A stretch of DNA of 64,000 bases from Polytrichum commune (taxonomy: Eukaryota > Streptophyta > Polytrichopsida > Polytrichales > Polytrichaceae): assembly GCA_950295325.1 (NCBI GenBank), contig OX485808.1, positions 10,420,501 to 10,484,500 of the forward strand. Reading direction: 5' to 3'. Below the pieces are notes generated by a model that was not told where the DNA came from, did no database searches, and saw only the letters and a program-made list of their open reading frames with translations. This document shows positions 54,433 through 64,000 of the stretch, piece after piece; the stretch's first letter is position 1; each line of letters opens with the position of its first letter. The position numbers and the translations under genes are program-made.

Positions 54433-55204
54433 AGTCTAACCTTGATAATATCACACCATCCGTTTCACCATAAAGTGTGATATAAACAAGGTGTGACATA
54501 TTTGATAATGTCACATTTTGAAGATTTGTGCATAATGTGATATTATCAAAAAAAAAGGAGAAATATAACAAATACAAGACTTCAATGTTTTTGAATGTAA
54601 AATATAATTCAAAATTGTGAATAACAACAACAACACATCATAATGTGTCATTGAGATCAGGTAAAGACCTCTCACTAGAGACAAAGAAGCTTCCAATGTC
54701 ACATTGTTTTAATGATGTTAAATGTCCAACACCAATTCTAATGAGTTTGTCATGGATTTTTTCCTTTCCTAACAACTCCTGAGTGTTGAAAATCTGAGAA
54801 CCTTGGCTAGCCATAAAATTCAAAACATCTTTAGCATATTTTTGTGCATCGCTTACCTTCACTACTTTAGACTCATCATCACTGCTATCAACGATCAATG
54901 GGTCTTCTTCCATGGAATAAAAGTACATGTTCGCCATCTTGCACTAATTGCACAAGCTCCTCAGTAGAATATTCCACCTGAAAATCATCTTCACCTTCCA
55001 TGTTTATGTACTCACCATCACATACAATCCATTCATATTTGATATTATCACATTTACACTACGGATTTTGGAAAAAATAGTGACATTATCAAGGGTGATA
55101 GGGATAATAACAAGGGAGTTTTACACTAAGAAAATCGGTTTCAAACTTTTAAGTGACAATATCAAGGTGTTCTATTAACAAGGGTGACATTATCAAGAAC
55201 ACTA
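54432..55204 (-). mobile_element. Small pogo-like (Tc1/mariner) DNA transposon
   Basis: The left end CAGTCTAACCTTGATAATAT mirrors the right end (complement TAGTGTTCTTGATAATGTCA). Both ends abut a TA dinucleotide, as expected for this superfamily. Many subterminal GATAATRTCAC motifs occur. The ends resemble plant pogo elements (CAGT-NN-AACCT). A 99-codon frame on the minus strand (54938-54638; DAQKYAKDVLNFMASQG, KIHDKLIRIGVGHLTSLKQC) looks like the C-terminus of a pogo/Tigger transposase, so this 773-bp element is an internally deleted derivative. Confidence 0.6.
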
Positions 55205-55796
55205 TATTCGTTAAATTGAGACTTTTTGGGCATTTTGAGACATTCACATAAATAAGAACAAGGATAAATGGAACACATATTGGAGAAAGTTGTAAGATGC
55301 GAACACTTTGTGTCGGGTATTTAGAACAAGAACCCCATTAATAACTCATATTTGGGATTGTTTAGGATGCGCAATCCAAACCTTAGGCCAAATTGAAGGG
55401 GAAATCTTAAAACATTCATATTATCGCACACAAAATATGAGATCTTGTATGAATATGTTTTAGGTAGGGCACTCCAAACCCTTAGACCATATTGAAGGGG
55501 AACTATGTGAACCAATATAATATAACATACAAAATATTCCAAACTCATATTTGTGATGGTTTAGTTAGGGCAATCCAAACCTTGGACCATATTGAAGGGG
55601 AAATCATGTGACACTTATATTATTGCAAAAAAAACATACAAAGTATGGCATGTAAAATGCATAGCATGCTAACACCACACATACATTGGATAGTGCGACC
55701 CAAAATGATGTTGCCTATGGCCCAAAACCCTACGCCTACTATGGCCTATCTAGCCTCGGAGATTGCCTCTTTTTCTTTTGTTTTTTTATCTTTTGC
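55205..55796. other. Intergenic DNA with tandem repeat
   Basis: No gene is seen. It contains the 100-bp tandem repeat and AT-rich flanks, and lies just past the 3' end of the last minus-strand exon. Confidence 0.5.
55340..55650 (+). repeat. Three tandem ~100-bp units
   Basis: Units are anchored by GGGCAATCCAAACCTT-like sequence at 55372, 55470 and 55571. Each continues with GACCATATTGAAGGGGAAAT and an ATATTAT...CATACAAAATAT tail. Confidence 0.8.
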
Positions 55797-56583
55797 CTAT
55801 TTTTCTTTTGCCTCTTTTTCTTTTGCTGCGGCTTCTTTTGCTCGCATTGCTTCAACATTCCTGAAAATCTCCGCCCCGCGACTATAGCCATTCTTGGGGT
55901 GACCGCCATCCATAAGACATTTTGGAGTCCGTCGGCCGCCCGAAATATACGTTGAAGAATTCGAATACGATGAAGTGGATTGTCTCGCATTTCTGGTCAT
56001 GGCGTACATACGCTCGAACTCGATGGACGCACTAGACCGCATAGGTTTACGGGTGGGAGCAACCTGCAACGCGTCATTGCAAGACCACATGTGTTAGTTT
56101 AGGGAGGAAGACCCAAACGTGTCACACGATCATTTTTTAAGTGCAAAATGATTGTAATGCGCGGTTAACCATGTTTTAGAGAGGGGGGGGGTTCACCTTG
56201 TCACCAGGGGCATTCCCATCGGAGTTGGCAAGGAGGGGCAAGGCGTCCCGCAAAGGAATAGGAAGGGTTCCACTCTTCGTTGGCCGTGCGTCCATCCGCA
56301 GCCGCCGTTGAGGTGTAATACTTCCGCCGGGCCGAGAGGGGGATGTCCGGACGCATTTGCGATTTATGCCCTTGAGCGGCGACGGGGACGGAGATCGCCG
56401 TAAGATTTGCTTGGGTGGGGGGCTATCGACGACGCCGGCGTCAATAGGCTCCTTGGAGTAGTCAATGGTTGACGCGGCGTCGTAAACGGTCTCGTAGAAG
56501 AAGCTCCCCAACTCTGACTCGCTGACGATGTCAATCGAGGGCTCCAAACGCTGGCGCAAAAAAGGAAACGAAACAAAACCCAA
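55797..56583 (-). CDS. Two-exon hypothetical protein or 3' exons of the upstream gene
   Basis: Two exons on the minus strand join in phase 0: 56550-56197 (donor GACAAG|GTGAAC) and 56063-55797 (acceptor TTGCAG|GTTGCT), ending in TAG. If translation starts at the ATG at 56583, the product is about 217 residues. It has an N-terminal segment with EPSIDIVSESELGSFFYE, a Ser/Pro/Arg-rich middle (RRSPSPSPLKG, RPGGSITPQRRLRM) and a C-terminus of Lys/Glu/Ala repeats (AKEAAAKEKEAKEK). I do not recognise the family. A CA microsatellite (56660-56687) and a stop codon separate it from the phosphatase exon. The acceptor-like TTTGCGCCAG before 56550 means it could instead be a downstream exon set reached by alternative splicing. 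Confidence 0.4.
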
Positions 56584-56656
56584 AGGAAGAGGGTTTGCTA
56601 GAGCGCGTGAAAATCAAGATACATATGAAGCATATATTACACAAAGTGGGCGGGCG

Positions 56657-56659
<3 letters not shown>

Positions 56660-56687
<28 letters not shown>
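56660..56687. repeat. CA microsatellite
   Basis: A pure (CA)n tract of about 14 units between the phosphatase stop codon and the next exon. Confidence 0.9.
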
Positions 56688-56691
<4 letters not shown>

Positions 56692-56695
56692 TGCC

Positions 56696-57508
56696 TCAAA
56701 TGAGCTTGTTAAATTTCGCGTGAGAGAACAACTCTCTGTACAAATGGTCTCGTGGATCCAAGTATCTCTCGCCTATCGGATTATTCCTAACAAAATTGTT
56801 TACAGGTAGTCCGCTTCCCCTGAGCGCCTGGAGGTATTTACTAAGGTCTAACAAAAATCGGTCCCGGACCTTCTCGACCGTCCACGTAGGGCAAACTATT
56901 AAGTTGGCCGTCGGGTTCAACATGTTCTTTGCGGCGCTGTCGTCCACCATGAGCGTGTTCTCCCGGGTGGGACGGACGTCGTAGGGGACACCTATCAATG
57001 ACGGACGCTGGTCCCAAAAAATGGGCTTCAAGACCTTGAGGTATTGGGGGGAAGCGGGGTTGTTTGGTTTTTTGACGACTTTGCCGTCCGGTGTGTACAA
57101 TATTCTACAGGCTTCCTGTGCTAGGACCATGCAGGGGGGCTCGATGCCCTTGAAGATGAACTCCACGACTGCATTGGTGTTCTCGGCCTTCATGGAGCTC
57201 CACACGACCACCCACCATCGTTGTTGGGCGATCTGGAGGAAGGTCCGAAGCCACGGGCGGAGGTGAACTAGCTTGCTCTTTATGAACGTGGGCGGCCCGT
57301 CGTAATTCGCGTCCTCGGGTTTGCAAAAGGCCACCGTGGGGGTCCTCGGGCAATGAACGCATTGGACGAGGACCCCGTTGAGGTCTAACACCAGGAACCG
57401 GGTCTTAGGCGGCAAAGGTGGAACGGGTAAAATGGGGGGGACCATCGCGCTACCTTCCTCGCTTCTTGGAGAGGCCCGGCGGGGAGCCGCGACGCTATGC
57501 TCCGATCC
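56696..57508 (-). CDS. FCP1/NLI-like HAD phosphatase domain
   Basis: The frame encodes a HAD-superfamily phosphatase of the FCP1/NLI-interacting-factor type, a family known for dephosphorylating the RNA polymerase II tail and other proteins. From the ATG at 57445 there are 249 residues. RFLVLDLNGVLV (about residue 17) is the nucleophile motif, WWVVVWSSMKAEN is motif II, and NTLMVDDSAAKN is the acidic motif. The usual second Asp of the DxD box is Asn (DLNG), a change that would remove the general acid, so activity is doubtful. An acceptor site (GTCTCCACAG at 57517-57508) puts the frame in phase with the donor at 58000/57999 of the upstream ParB-methyltransferase gene. The domain may therefore be the C-terminus of that protein, or a gene of its own. 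It ends at a clear TGA. Confidence 0.75.
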   Translation of the reverse strand, partial: GSEHSVAAPRRASPRSEEGSAMVPPILPVPPLPPKTRFLVLDLNGVLVQCVHCPRTPTVAFCKPEDANYDGPPTFIKSKLVHLRPWLRTFLQIAQQRWWVVVWSSMKAENTNAVVEFIFKGIEPPCMVLAQEACRILYTPDGKVVKKPNNPASPQYLKVLKPIFWDQRPSLIGVPYDVRPTRENTLMVDDSAAKNMLNPTANLIVCPTWTVEKVRDRFLLDLSKYLQALRGSGLPVNNFVRNNPIGERYLDPRDHLYRELFSHAKFNKLI

Positions 57509-57987
57509 CTGTGGAGACGAGCGACATAAGGCGGGGGAAGACTATGTCATGCTATGTCCACTTAAAGTGAATACAATATTTTCTGTGAAAAATACAAGAA
57601 CCACTATGCATAGGCGGCCATACAAATGCAAGAGGGGGCAAGAGGAAAAAATATACATTTGAACACGAAAACAAACATAAGGGCACAAAATAATAATTTT
57701 ATTGTTTGCAATGCTCTATGTACAAAATGCCTAGGGGTGCGAAGCCGCGTTGAACGATCCATTCAAACTATCCTAATTCAACATCTACAAAATTGTGTGC
57801 ACGCCTCCAAGTTCAAGTAAAATCGTGGGACGGGCGACGTTAGTGATCGTCGGGGGGGGGGGGGCTGAAGGGATGCGAGAGCGGATGGACGGGGTGGGGG
57901 CAGTTCCTCCTAGCTAGGGGGGACACGACCACGGCAACAAGACAATAGACCAGGAGTTTGGGTCGAGCGACCCAAACTGAGGAGGTC

Positions 57988-60900
57988 TCAGTGTATTACC
58001 TCTCCCTGGTCATGCCTGGACGCCATGGAAGCCTCCACCGCCTCCGCTTGTCGTTCTCTCTTGCCACCGCCTTCTCCGACGATGTCAGCACCCCTCTCCT
58101 GCAAGCGCTCAGTGTCAGGACCTTCTCCTAACCCAACCTCCGCATGTGCATCATGCATAGGTTCATCGATTGGGATAGGAGTAGAGGTATCACCAGGCCC
58201 TCGAGGACCTTCAACATCAGGCATGGGTGTGTCTCTTTCAGACCCATGCTGGTCCATTGAAGACTGAGCGGTAACGGGGTTTGGGTCGGCCGACCCAAAC
58301 TCTCGTGCATCATGAGATTGGCCTTGTTGCACTGTAAGGGGGGGCGGGTTTGGGTCGGACGACCCAAACATGTGGGGGTCGTCCTGCTGATGGGGCGGGG
58401 GGATCACCAGGGGCGGCCGAAGTGGTGGGGGGGTCACAGGTCTAGAAGACCCGGGAAGGCGCCATATATTGGGGTCATCCGCTTGTTGAACCGGCGGATA
58501 CGGACGGACGTGGGGGGGAACCATGTGCTGAAAGCTGAAGGAGGATTGCGGCACGGGCTGCGGAGGAATGTTCTGGGGAGGGAAGCCGGGGGGCAAGTGT
58601 GGAAATGAGCCCGGGGGAGCCACCACCAAACCCTGCGCCCACATGCCTCGAATCACTTGCGTGATCAAGTCCGCACTAGTTGGAGGTTGCGCCAATGCCC
58701 GCAGTCGCTCTTGCTCCAATAAGAGAGCCCTTAGCTCTGCCACTTCGTTCCGCACTGAGGGTTCTTCAGCAGCGGCCTTTTGCAAGCGGACGCGTTGTTC
58801 TTCGTCCCTTAACATCTTCTCGTTGGCTTCTTGCACGGTGAGGACTTCCGGCTTCACCTTCACCATCCCTGCGAAGGCACCTGGAGAGGGAGGGTCCGAC
58901 CTGAGCCGTTTCGCGAGCTCCATGTCGTCCTCGTCTTCGCTGCTAATGGCAATTGTCTCCTCGATGGCATAGTCGCCATAGAGTTTCTTGCCTTTTAGTT
59001 TCCTCCTCTCCCTGAACGCGGCAGTCGCATCCCTGGAGTACATGTCGCGGGCATCATCAACCGTCAGGACGGGCACCAACTTACTTTGTGGAGTTGCTAC
59101 CCGCATTGCCTTCTTTCGTTGAGGGGCTTCAGATTCCTGAGTGAAGCATGTTCCCCCTTCTTCGACCTCGCCCTCCACTTTAGCCTCTTCTTCCTCCTCT
59201 TCCACCTCCTCATCCTCCTCCTCCTCCTCCTCCCCCTCCTCGTCACGCGGTCGCCGAGAGGATGTGCCTAGATGCACTTGGACCAGAGGCTCTGGTACAG
59301 CAACTGGAACCTTTATGGCCAATTCTTCAGGGTTGACACGCCTCGCCTTATCCAGCGGGCTCTCACCCCCTTCAACAGTCTCCTCGGCGTAGCTCCCAGG
59401 GATCCAGTCTAGTATATCCATCTTCTTCGCCAATGATTTTTGGGCCTTGTAGAATTGGATGTCATTAAGGTCTACATAGCTGTACACGTTCAGCCCCAGC
59501 ATCTGCAGAAATCCCACCAGATGTTATTATATGGCATAACATGTGATTCCACCGAAAAGGGGAAGTACATACAAGACCTAATATCAATTGCAAAGGTTAT
59601 AGTTTGGGTCGAGCGACCCAAACTAGCATCAGTGTTAGTTTGGGTCGAGCGACCCAAACTAGCATCAGTGTTAGTTTGGGTCGAGCGACCCAAACTAGCA
59701 TCGGTGTTAGTTTGGGTCGCTCGACCCAAACTATGAAAACAATTATGGTAAGGAGCTTACCATGCCAGCGAAGACGGGCTTGGTGCCGCCGAAGACGTTG
59801 AATATACAGTCCCCTCTTCTCGTCAAGGCCCTCATTATTCGGAGATAGAATTCCATCCGCAACTCGTCCGAATGGTATATGGCATATTTTGCCTCGTCGT
59901 AGAGGGACTTACTTGCGCCCAGGCCTTCTGGAACTTGGAATAGTTTCTGCATCCGGGTTATGGGGTGGTTCTCCACCTTCAGCAAGGTTGCTTTGAACAC
60001 AAAGTACAAGCACAACAAATTCATGACTTTGGTTTTCTTGTCCTTTAGTGTCGTGTACACCCCCTCCGCCGGTGCAGCAATGTAGTGAGACTTAGACACC
60101 GCATACTCAGGCTGCAATTTCCTCACAATTTCATACACCTGCTCTGCTCTCCTATCCTCTACTATCCATAGCCACATATCGACCTCCCTAAGCTTAGGGC
60201 TTGCATACTCCACGAACTTCGACATGAAGGGCTCGTAGAAGGGTGTACCCATTGTGCCCTCAAACGTACTCCCAGGAATGCTCCGGAAGTCTATTATACC
60301 AAAGGGGAACCGGTCCGCTGCTCTTACTCGTATTTCTTTCCTGGAATCAAGGCCGGGCCATCCCTGGATTTTAATAGGGTCAAAAGCGACAAGGTTGAAA
60401 TGCGCATCCCCCTCAAAACTTACAATCTTCTTCTCTTTTATAAAGTTTGAGAAGGCACGCGTCGAGTGTTCTGGAAGAGCCAGGTTCTTCCCACCCTTCA
60501 CCAGTTTTGACTTTAGGAAGTCTTCTCCTGCCTCCCTGATCAGAGCTGCCATGGATGCACTGGTGAAGTTGTATTCAGACAAAAATGTTCTTTTCCGGGA
60601 TTAGCTTCTGCAGCTCCTGGACGATCATTGTTTTCTTCTTCCTATTCTCTGCCCATTCCTTCATTGTGTAGCATGAAGGAACAAAGGATTTCGGCTTGGT
60701 GAAGACTATTTTGGGGTACACCCAAAATCTCTTAGGGGTCGGGTTGTTGTGCAAGATGTGCGTTGCCGCCTTCCCCATTTCCGCCTCCGAAAGACCCTGC
60801 AGACTTCTAAAGAATTCTCTCATGAGAGGCTTCATCGCCTTGAATCGAGAGGACGAGTTGAAGAGGTTGCATGTGTCAGGATCCATGAGATCCCATGTCT

Positions 60901-62652
60901 CGTGTTTCTCAAACACTGTCTTCCACTTCTGCCAAACCATGTCGGATGATGTAATCAAGTAGATCTCTCCTCTTAGCTCATTGTACTTCTTTTGCTTGTG
61001 ACTTGAATTGTCAATTGAGGAGAACTTGTTTATCATTTGGTATTTGAAAAGCTGCACAAGAGCATAGAATGCGTGTTAATTCTCAATATATTGTTTCCAA
61101 ACAAAGAAGAAAAATGATGAACAACAAACTGCGTAGACAAACACAAACTAAAACACAAGGTTTAGGTCGAGCGACCCAAACTGTATGAAGAAACACAAGG
61201 TTTGGGTCGAGCGACCCAAACTGTATGAAGAAACGCAAAGTTTGGGTCGAGCGACCCAAACTGTATGAAGAAACCCAAAGTTTGGGTCGAGCGACCCAAA
61301 CTCTGTTTGAGAAACAATGCTCACCTCCCACTTTGGATTCTTGTCTTTTGCATTCTCCCTTTCCTTGGGAGGCCGGCCGTAGAACTCCCACACATCCCGC
61401 GATGCCATGATGTTCCTAATCCAAGAAGCTTGATATGCCCGCTTCTTGTTATTCATGTTGAAATAGCGGGAGATATAGCTCAGCCGGGTTTCGTCGTCCG
61501 ACCACACGACCAATGCCTTCCATACCTTCAATTTTCCTTTAGACCATTAGGATCATTCCACTCCGTCATCAGTTGAAGTTTCTTTGAAGCTTCAACACTG
61601 TGCTGACCGTCAATCAGCCAAAAATCGCCTTTCTCTATAGAAGGCCACATATCCGGTGTAGGCATTCTTTTGTGTCCCTGAGGCATGACAACAATAGTTT
61701 GCCTATCATGTTTAAACTGGTCGCTCACCATCTGGGCGATTAACCAATCAACATACGCATCTTCCTTTGCCCGAACGCACTTCTCTGGTGGCGCTAGGTG
61801 GCATTGTGCGATGTTGACATCAAACTTGAATTCTCTGCCCATGAAAAAACAATGTAAACACTTGGTGTCGAAATTGTTGAGTATTTTCTGGATCTCCGAT
61901 GGCTCCACTCCTTCCCCGGGCTTGGGCATACGTAGCTCCGGTGAAACAGGCTCATCTGTCATGGCAGATACTGACTCTCTCGGCCTCTTAGATGGTGTCG
62001 TCTGCCGGCTTTGTGATGGCGTCGGTGTTTCACTATCAGCAGGAGTTGCCGTAGGTGTTGTTCTCCTCGAGTCAGCTGGAACCGGTCGGGGCTTCCTCAT
62101 TGTTTGAGGTCTTGACGACCCTGCGCCCTCTTCAGCAGTCGCCTTGCGCCTCACAGCTTGTTGAGATTTTGACTTGCTTTGCTGGGTCTTGTTTATTGCG
62201 TTGATTGTCTGCTTAAGTTTAGTGAACCTGGTTGCAACCTTCGTGTTTGAAATGATCGCATCTATGAAGATTGTATCCGGTTTAACAATGTCTGGCTCAG
62301 CGCAGGATTCCTTCACGTATACTGGATCGAATGGCTCGGCTTGCTCATGCATGAACATGTGCACATTTTCCAGAGAAGAGTTTTCCAGGATGACGTCAAC
62401 GTGCTCTCCTAGAGCATGAACTGATGCCACCTCCCATCCCGTCAAAGCATCCCATGTGTGTTGCTCCTCCGTGCCAACCTTCAAAACAAGGAGGATTTTG
62501 AATTGAGCTGCCTTTACTACAAGAAAGGACCATGCAATTACAAGGTCTTCTTTTGCTACGTAGGATTGGTTTTTAGGAGTTTCGTGCTCCTGCCAGATCG
62601 CGTCTGGTGCCAGCTTGAACCATCGTTCTCCAGGTCTTTTCTTGGGGGGCAT
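57988..62652 (-). CDS. ParB-like/DGQHR domain fused to a degenerate N4/N6-type DNA methyltransferase
   Basis: Three exons in phase 0: 62652-61325, 61051-59761 and 59502-58000, about 1373 residues. If the last donor is not used the frame stops at 57988. Exon 1 carries GDFWLIDGQHSVEASKKL near residue 345, like the DGQHR motif of ParB-family domains, after a Ser/Pro/Thr linker. Exon 2 then follows the order of beta-class amino methyltransferases: PFGIIDFRS (place of DPPY, about 695), WIVEDRRAEQVYEIVRKL, then GDCIFNVFGGTKPVFAGM (place of DPFxGSGTT, about 865). It continues across the intron into MLGLNVYSYVDLNDIQFYKA, the usual strand with an acidic end. ParB-methyltransferase fusions are common in phages and bacteria. 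Key catalytic residues are changed. Exon 3 is acidic, then Pro-rich. Single-base frame breaks occur in an A run at 61532-61535 and a T run at 60581-60585 (minus-strand sense). The ATG directly follows a good acceptor, suggesting a non-coding first exon near 63610-63900. Confidence 0.55.
59601..59732. repeat. Four palindromes in a 36-bp tandem array (intron 2)
   Basis: Units are the palindrome plus AGCATCAGTGTT spacer. The fourth copy has the opposite centre (CT instead of AG). Confidence 0.9.
61159..61302. repeat. Four palindromes in a 40-bp tandem array (intron 1)
   Basis: Units are the palindrome plus a GTATGAAGAAACRCAARG-like spacer. The first copy has TTTAGGTCG in its left arm. The array sits between the donor at 61324 and the acceptor at 61052. 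Confidence 0.9.
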
Positions 62653-64000
62653 CTGCAAGTAGAAATACATATGTTAGTTTCGGTCGGGCGACCCAAACTC
62701 TTTCAAATCATATAGGCTTATGTCTGGGTTTAGTAACATTTATATATGGGGTTACTTTTCACAGGTTTGGGTCGAACGACCCAAACCTGTGCCTACAATG
62801 GCTAATGAATAATATATTATTTGGCTACGAAAACCAATCTTTAAGTTCATGGATACAACAATCATCACGAGCTACTGTTCTAGTTGTGGGTCATTTCATT
62901 ATTGCTTGGGTGTTTGAGTTGTTGTTTATAAGTGTAAGTATTGTTCGTAAGCAGTAAAAATTTACGCAAAGTTTGGGTCGTTCGACCCAAACTTTGTAGC
63001 GGTATGGAATGATCGGCTATGGCCTTAGATCATACCCAAGATGATGATTACCTAAATTATGAATTACCATTTCATGCGCTGTTTGGGTCGAACGACCCAA
63101 ACTCTGCAGATGGATTGGGTCGAGCGACCCAAAGCATGTGCTAGTTTGGGTCGAGCGACCCAAACTCTGCAGATGGATTGGGTCGATAGGGTTAGATATT
63201 CACCCAAGATGATGATTAAATTAATTATAAATGAACATTTGATGCGGAGTTTGGCTAAACCCTAGACCCAAACAGTGCTTATGGTTTGGGTCGAGCGACC
63301 CAAACTCTGCAGATGGATTGGCGCCCACGACCCAGAGCATCTGCTAGTTTGGGTCGAACGACCCAAACCATCTTTAGAGTTTGGGTCGAACGATCCAAAC
63401 CAGCTGGAGAGTTTGGGTCGCTCTACCCAAACCAACTGCAGAGTTTAGTGTTTTAGGGTTTCAAACTGAAGTTTGGGTCGTCTCTCGAAACACTTTTGAT
63501 TCCAGAGACCTTTATAATGTGTTTACGCAGCATATACAATGCTTATGCATTGTAGATGCTGCGAAACTCTAAAGAAATTGACACACATAAAGAAGTTGAA
63601 GAAATCACCTTGCTTTGCAAACTACACAACAAGCTGCTGTTGGAAGCAGTTCTAACAAGCTAGTCTTGGAAGCTGATTCTAGAAAGGATTGGATATCAGA
63701 AAACTAAGAACGCCTCACAAACATTCACTCTGAATTGAAGAAGCTTTCACAAACATTCACTCAGAATTAAACAATCCCTCACAAACATTCACTCAGAATT
63801 AAACAATCCCTCACAAACATTCACTCAGAATTAAACAATCCCTCACAAACATTCACTCTGAATGTAACAAGTGTTTACAAACATGAACAAAGAAGCTATC
63901 TGAAGGCCACACATGCATCCTGATTTTCAAACAATCATTCTAATTCCGAAATCACTCTACACTCACACATGAATGTTTCTAAGACCAGGAGGAACTGACA
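62653..64000 (-). other. Leader region of the ParB-methyltransferase gene
   Basis: There is no long frame. Upstream of the start ATG (minus sense) are an acceptor-like TACTTGCAG, then about 950 bp with ten palindromes. A donor-like CAAG|GTGATT follows at 63610/63609. A 5' UTR exon between roughly 63610 and 63900 and a long palindrome-rich first intron are the simplest reading. The 32-bp tandem repeat (63715-63874) would then lie in the leader or promoter. No TATA box was fixed. Confidence 0.4.
63715..63874. repeat. Five 32-bp tandem units
   Basis: Units start at 63715, 63747, 63779, 63811 and 63843, each TCACAAACATTCACTCAGAA plus a 12-base tail (TTAAACAATCCC). The three central copies are identical and the outer two diverged. 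Confidence 0.95.

Follow-up and report, generated by a model that had tools for sequence, protein, structure and literature searches.

What is a gene with the block order of a ParB-DNA methyltransferase doing in a plant nuclear genome? The question is raised by positions 57,988 to 62,652 of a 64,000-nucleotide stretch of Polytrichum commune contig OX485808.1 (C6 here; positions 10,420,501 to 10,484,500), and this whole stretch is the window in what follows. A sequence-only reading had proposed that spliced exons there encode a modification enzyme, either domesticated or borne by a mobile element. We found that the gene is part of an abundant large DNA transposon and is not a host gene. Our preferred explanation, to which we give a probability of about 0.55, is that it is the accessory gene (gene 1) of a giant DNA transposon that duplicates 4 bp of its target site, and that its product is an anti-silencing descendant of a ParB-methyltransferase that would bind a 22-bp palindrome found many times in the element.

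The gene lies within an element that has defined ends. All 39 of the other copies scored (of 2390 candidates in a DNA search) begin at window positions 55188-55198, and all 35 scored at the far end (of 2074 candidates) stop within 7 bp of one point. The window copy has the 4-bp target site duplication (TSD) CAAG (55194-55197), and the 4-bp duplications were identical in nine of the 11 copies with both ends read (the window copy and eight of ten others), the exceptions being L054/L055 and L066/L067. The element thus has terminal inverted repeats (TIRs), TSDs of constant length and multiple copies, as a cut-and-paste DNA transposon should. Past the end of the window (L036, L043) lies a second gene (gene 2), divergent from gene 1, with a match to DUF7869 (PF25273, E = 1.8e-42). 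Judging from its position and from acidic motifs, it is probably the transposase; a literature search on DUF7869 found no paper.

Gene 1 is present in many copies, and its protein is kept under strong purifying selection across subfamilies. The copy counts are lower bounds, being scored matches among candidates in the same genome (407.8 Mb assembled, about 406 Mb of it in C1-C7, of 42-78 Mb each). A 280-aa block of exon 2 gave at least 138 scored matches (of 1015 candidates) on all seven large chromosomes, C1-C7, and 123 of the 138 had no in-frame stop; exon 1 gave at least 111 scored matches (of 1106 candidates). For exons 1-3, the ratio of nonsynonymous to synonymous divergence (dN/dS) was 0.030-0.119, with dS of 0.71-2.83, in 13 of 18 pairs among subfamilies A, A2, B, and C; dS was saturated in the other five. 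The exon at 56696-57508 (exon 4), which was compared between A and B only, was far less diverged than the remaining gene (dN/dS 0.152). Because its dS was only 0.216, we suggest that exon 4 was exchanged or captured late.

The window copy of gene 1 is a dead copy. The sequence blocks quoted in the sequence-only reading are all where it had placed them on the - strand: GDFWLIDGQHSVEAS in the frame 61528-62673, GDCIFNVFGGTKPVFAGM at the end of the frame 59743-60600, and LGLNVYSYVDLNDIQFYKA at the start of the frame 57988-59523. We modeled the gene using copy L037 as a guide, with predicted splicing (Table 1). Two of the introns implied by the proposed exon chain have GT-AG borders in phase 0. 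The other two joins, near 61535 and 60595, were considered as introns and rejected, as L037 reads through both; they are indels, a one-base frameshift and a short frameshifting deletion. Because both frame changes are mutations, the window copy is unable to make the whole protein. The chain exists, and the gene extends beyond the limits first given to it, running on through intron C into exon 57508-56696. That exon matches the NIF/FCP1-type domain well above the family cut-off (58 bits against 21.8). In L037, exons 1-3 are open and encode 1,388 aa, and exon 4 has 270 codons. Other copies are also broken: L040 shifts frame in exon 3, and L068 carries a stop codon where exon 1 ends.

Table 1. 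Positions of the element, gene 1, the palindromes, and the family II gene, in window coordinates unless a locus or contig is named.
Feature	Position	Strand	Details
Transposon	55198..64000, on past the window to C6:10493002		17,305 bp in total; loci L036, L043
Left terminal inverted repeat, 28 bp	55198..55225	+	pairs perfectly with the far-end repeat
Gene 1 exon 1 (N-terminal region and DGQH block)	61325..62652	-	one-base frameshift near 61535; open in L037
Intron A	61052..61324	-	GT-AG, phase 0; four palindromes
Gene 1 exon 2 (methyltransferase-like block order, ends IFNVFGGTKPVFAGM)	59761..61051	-	short frameshifting deletion near 60595
Intron B	59503..59760	-	GT-AG, phase 0; four palindromes in the window copy (one in L037, three in L038)
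Gene 1 exon 3 (YSYVDLND block; acidic, proline-rich tail; two codon-exact palindromes)	58000..59502	-	
Intron C	57509..57999	-	GT-AG phase-0 junction, predicted splicing
Gene 1 exon 4 (NIF/FCP1-type HAD phosphatase-like domain)	56696..57508	-	joined through predicted splicing of intron C; PF03031, E = 1.2e-15
Palindrome GTTTGGGTCGNNCGACCCAAAC, 21 copies	57956..63432		up to 3 mismatches
Family II gene	L157:7512-7997; L159 (C1:479511-482718)		DGNHR block and amino-methyltransferase part beside palindromes

The element carries a 22-bp palindrome that is conserved as DNA between subfamilies. The 21 copies in the window, none of them outside 57956-63432, compare with 0.00 expected from shuffles; ten are before gene 1, four in intron A, four in intron B, two in exon 3, and one in intron C. 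Further copies in the element are mainly before gene 2, at 67890-68668. There are 9,231 exact GTTTGGGTCGNNCGACCCAAAC sites in the genome and none of a reversed-pattern control, and in the 30 best-scoring of the 138 gene copies 251 of 268 palindromes are exact. The fixed positions in intron A are kept in subfamilies A (80/80), B (80/80), A2 (58/60), C (78/80), and D (60/60), while the spacers between them are no more alike in A and B than shuffled sequence (identity 0.45 versus 0.44). In exon 3, A, B, C, D, and E all keep the codons TTT GGG TCG nnC GAC CCA AAC at two sites, with a varying middle residue. One array, at C1:616088-617358, has sixteen exact palindromes in 78-bp steps (once 79, once double).

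Some observations on these sites weigh against the preferred explanation. Spacer identity stays within that of the best of 20 shuffles in only five of the ten subfamily pairs; the other five pairs exceed it, C and D being most alike (0.85). The mutation spectrum, counted in the same 30 gene copies, speaks on both sides. Outside the palindromes, transitions affected 192 of 9357 CG cytosines (2.05%), 151 of 8770 CHG (1.72%), and 402 of 35259 CHH (1.14%; H is A, C, or T), compared with 164 of 53014 at A/T (0.31%), a cytosine excess that fits what past host methylation would leave and that counts in favor of the explanation. Palindromic CGs changed at about half the rate of other CGs (10/892 versus 192/9357), and they are not clearly protected from change. 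In subfamily A, intron palindromes varied less than their surroundings (11/2244 versus 53/5596, and 0/1140 versus 36/4332), and those in exon 3 were no quieter (33/1098 versus 963/36385).

The same palindrome adjoins a second, very different multi-copy gene, which we call family II (the window gene being family I), with at least 150 scored matches of 1451 candidates. Among the first 100 palindrome sites listed of the 9,231, 77 fell into three clusters that hold or adjoin a family-I gene, 19 into two clusters (nine sites in L157, ten in L158) that hold or adjoin a family-II gene, and four, which count against the preferred explanation, were assigned to neither. The L157 and L158 clusters have no family-I gene; a related family-II exon lies at C1:2163336, 3.4 kb beyond the L158 array. 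L157 and L159 encode DGNHR and, further on, RGPYQKSPRFFQDLIELFTPSNGRVVDLTCSTG. The methyltransferase part of family II is similar to the 36 ParB-methyltransferases of our reference set (L001, L072, L073, and those of 33 of 80 loci; hhalign E = 3.5e-9, with none of 200 shuffles as good) and to a PHROG DNA methyltransferase (2.3e-9). Its match to PF01555 (5.8e-5, 23.6 bits) is below the cut-off of 26.7, and PDB gave only a weak match to DpnA (E = 0.29). It has FPDG at the position of DPPY in the phage family and keeps a motif-I-like VVDLTCSTG block. On the other side, the family-II exon had no PF02195 match in Pfam, its ParB part resembled phage ParB no more than chance allows (113 of 200 shuffles did as well), and family II is known from gene and palindromes, element ends being established for family I. 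A frame between two palindrome arrays, at L158:4923-5993 in reverse-complement numbering, is perhaps transposase-like; three frame pieces (two from L158, including one of 200 aa, and one from L159) had no match in Pfam, DUF7869 included.

The statistics do not establish that the window family descends from ParB and methyltransferase proteins, and the window protein is not proven to be a PARB-METHYLTRANSFERASE. The sequence-only reading had inferred the family from motif order, and had suggested a profile search for ParBc (PF02195) and N6_N4_Mtase (PF01555). The window protein matched neither: there was no PF02195 match in Pfam and NCBIfam scans, no PF01555 match to the window family at E 10, and nothing convincing in PHROGs, NCBIfam, or PDB chains. 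Against the 36 reference proteins in hhalign, shuffles did as well in 7 of 150 cases for the methyltransferase part, in 61 of 150 for the ParB part (chance level), and in 5 of 100 for the whole protein. Comparing family I with family II, 16 of 200 (methyltransferase part) and 20 of 100 (whole protein) shuffles were as good, and for the ParB part 12 of 200 were, with an alignment off the motif. In hmmsearch, the three real sequences did no better than shuffles, ranking 2, 7, and 26 among 178 scored sequences that were mostly shuffles, and an AlphaFold model of the window 280-aa block alone (predicted local distance difference test score 37) was useless. The comparison with the 36 proteins is at most suggestive, and at motif I only; taken together, these results count against the proposed descent.

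The motifs themselves differ from the canonical ones. In the beta-class order, S-adenosylmethionine (SAM) motif I follows motif IV and is followed by an acidic strand, and IFNVFGGTKPVF...YSYVD aligns at SAM motif I and the acidic strand, with 7 of 150 shuffles scoring equally. At motif I, family I reads FGG[ST]K in place of FxGxG. Motif IV of amino-methyltransferases is (DNS)PP(YFW), and no [DNS]PP[YFWHR] was found in the roughly 958 aa scanned, which cover exons 1-2 and the beginning of exon 3. The conserved arginine of ParB sits in G.HR/GERR. The block first described as DGQHR-like reads DGQHS in the three family-I proteins scanned and DGQYN in L155, without that arginine; family II has DGNHR. 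No relatives were found in viral contigs (whole protein, ParB part, or methyltransferase part) or in genome contigs (ParB part) with search patterns that held neither DGQH nor the motif-I block. In the same genome PF02195 had three matches, on the small contigs C12 and C23. These contigs (61 and 20 kb; loci L001-L003) carry ParB genes and one ParB-methyltransferase gene, and are probably bacterial contamination of the assembly.

Descent from a ParB-methyltransferase may hold for family I on the strength of DGQH, the order of the blocks, the occurrence of the same palindrome beside family II, and the precedent in algae described below. The most serious alternative is that the DGQH and FGG blocks are coincidental and that gene 1 encodes a lineage-specific DNA-binding accessory protein of other origin, an explanation that shares palindrome binding with the preferred one and differs on ancestry. 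The lack of a convincing profile match favors it. We consider it unlikely, in that the best hhalign stretch covers the motif-I block and keeps the expected order, and the palindrome is common to family II, whose methyltransferase part is supported.

In the explanation that we prefer, the protein would go back to a ParB-methyltransferase like those reported from algal transposons and would bind the 22-bp palindrome as a dimer, so marking copies of its own element. Once bound, it could control both promoters of the element, most likely by working against silencing by the host, as VANC does for VANDAL elements, and the fused HAD-like domain might serve as an effector or partner module. Methylation of the sites seems less likely, and catalysis is doubtful: we favor anti-silencing over methylation because the protein has lost the canonical motif IV and the arginine of ParB. 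An active enzyme would instead bind the palindromes and modify its own element with N4-methylcytosine or N6-methyladenine, as has been put forward for transposons of algae. That prediction was reported with the Sola1-1_Ec32 architecture (PMC12477816), and the significant methyltransferase match and VVDLTCSTG of family II agree with it. We find activity improbable given that the window family has no [DNS]PP[YFWHR] and an altered motif I (FGG[ST]K for FxGxG), and that family II has FPDG for DPPY.

It is also quite improbable that the DUF7869 protein, as transposase or regulator, is what binds the palindromes and that gene 1 is unrelated to them. Both genes are within the element, and CACTA-like elements commonly carry transposase-bound repeats. 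The palindromes, however, are not subterminal, the outermost (with up to 3 mismatches) lying about 2.8 kb and 3.8 kb in from the two ends, and they also adjoin family II, where the three frame pieces match no Pfam family. Domestication as a single host gene, with which the long open frames and purifying selection would agree, is refuted for this locus by the 138 scored copies, the TIRs and TSDs, and the broken window copy, which bear out the mobile-element origin that the sequence-only reading had offered as its other possibility.

Other features were noted in and around the element. By eye, a short tandem repeat, its unit about 32 bp long (CACAAACATTCACTCAGAATTAA...), lies within the element before gene 1 (63740-63870). 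To the right of the element, L043:4286-6880 (- strand) holds an 864-aa frame, which we take to read like a Copia-type integrase and reverse transcriptase. Elsewhere in the window are an RNase H match (PF00075, 6497-7807), perhaps a fragment of a long interspersed nuclear element, and a match to the N-terminus of lipoyl synthase (PF16881). Together with NAM-domain matches in the genome (28 exon pieces, as against none in 14 control genomes), NAM being a streptophyte domain, the lipoyl synthase match agrees with a host that is a land plant or a closely related alga.

We compared the element with known systems. Sola1 superfamily elements make 4-bp TSDs, the length found here in 9 of 11 copies. 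CACTA/EnSpm elements make 3-bp TSDs; our element resembles them in its TIR, which reads AACACTA, and differs from them in its 4-bp duplications and in having a second gene that matches DUF7869. The phage and bacterial ParB-methyltransferases (for example, L001 and L072) have the same order of a ParB part and then a beta-class methyltransferase, and family II, unlike the window family, is significantly similar to them in the methyltransferase part. They differ in being single open frames, and L001 has DPPY.

The closest known likeness is the brown-algal transposon Sola1-1_Ec32, described as a 21.5-kb element with a ParB-like/DNA methyltransferase accessory gene, with similar proteins cited for green and red algal transposons (PMC12477816). 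Both are giant DNA transposons (17.3 kb here) with the accessory gene on the strand opposite a transposase-like gene, and both have ParB-like and methyltransferase-like parts together, as compared by description, not sequence. Ours differs, as far as that source goes, in its plant genome, the added HAD/NIF-like domain, the absence of a canonical motif IV, and the candidate 22-bp palindromic site. The order of parts read from the window has a counterpart in an algal protein class (PMC12477816), and the window protein has no significant match. The claim that no plant protein of this kind had been described stood for land plants, where our literature search, including bryophytes and mosses, found no ParB-methyltransferase transposon protein, and it did not extend to algae. 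The protein kind would now reach from algae to an apparent land plant. The same report proposed that such transposon proteins bind and modify their own DNA, naming no binding site in the part available (PMC12477816). A candidate site is now at hand, with DNA-level conservation in introns and codons, thousands of natural copies, and two gene families, and it makes that proposal directly testable. Our results suggest that selection may keep recognition and not catalysis. Tentatively, and with more doubt than confidence, we propose a eukaryotic, transposon-borne self-recognition system like ParB/parS, in which two deeply diverged ParB-methyltransferase-derived families, both apparently lacking the canonical catalytic motif, would read a shared 22-bp palindrome. 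The former modification enzyme would serve as a sequence-specific identity mark, shielding its own elements from plant silencing or activating them in spite of it, and one family would have recruited a HAD-type domain as effector.

A second comparison is with the VANDAL elements, which are MULEs. In Arabidopsis VANDAL elements, arrays of the VANC motif (YAGTATTAY) lie in introns and upstream regions, are in tandem, and gain and lose copies (PMC5735166). Both systems have an accessory protein and a short motif that is dense in the introns and upstream regions of the element. They differ in the motif, a 22-bp palindrome here, which the protein would be predicted to bind, and we liken them by layout, not homology. 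Because the arrays, which lie before both genes and in the accessory-gene introns, have the layout of VANC targets, we favor binding and anti-silencing as the function of the gene 1 protein.

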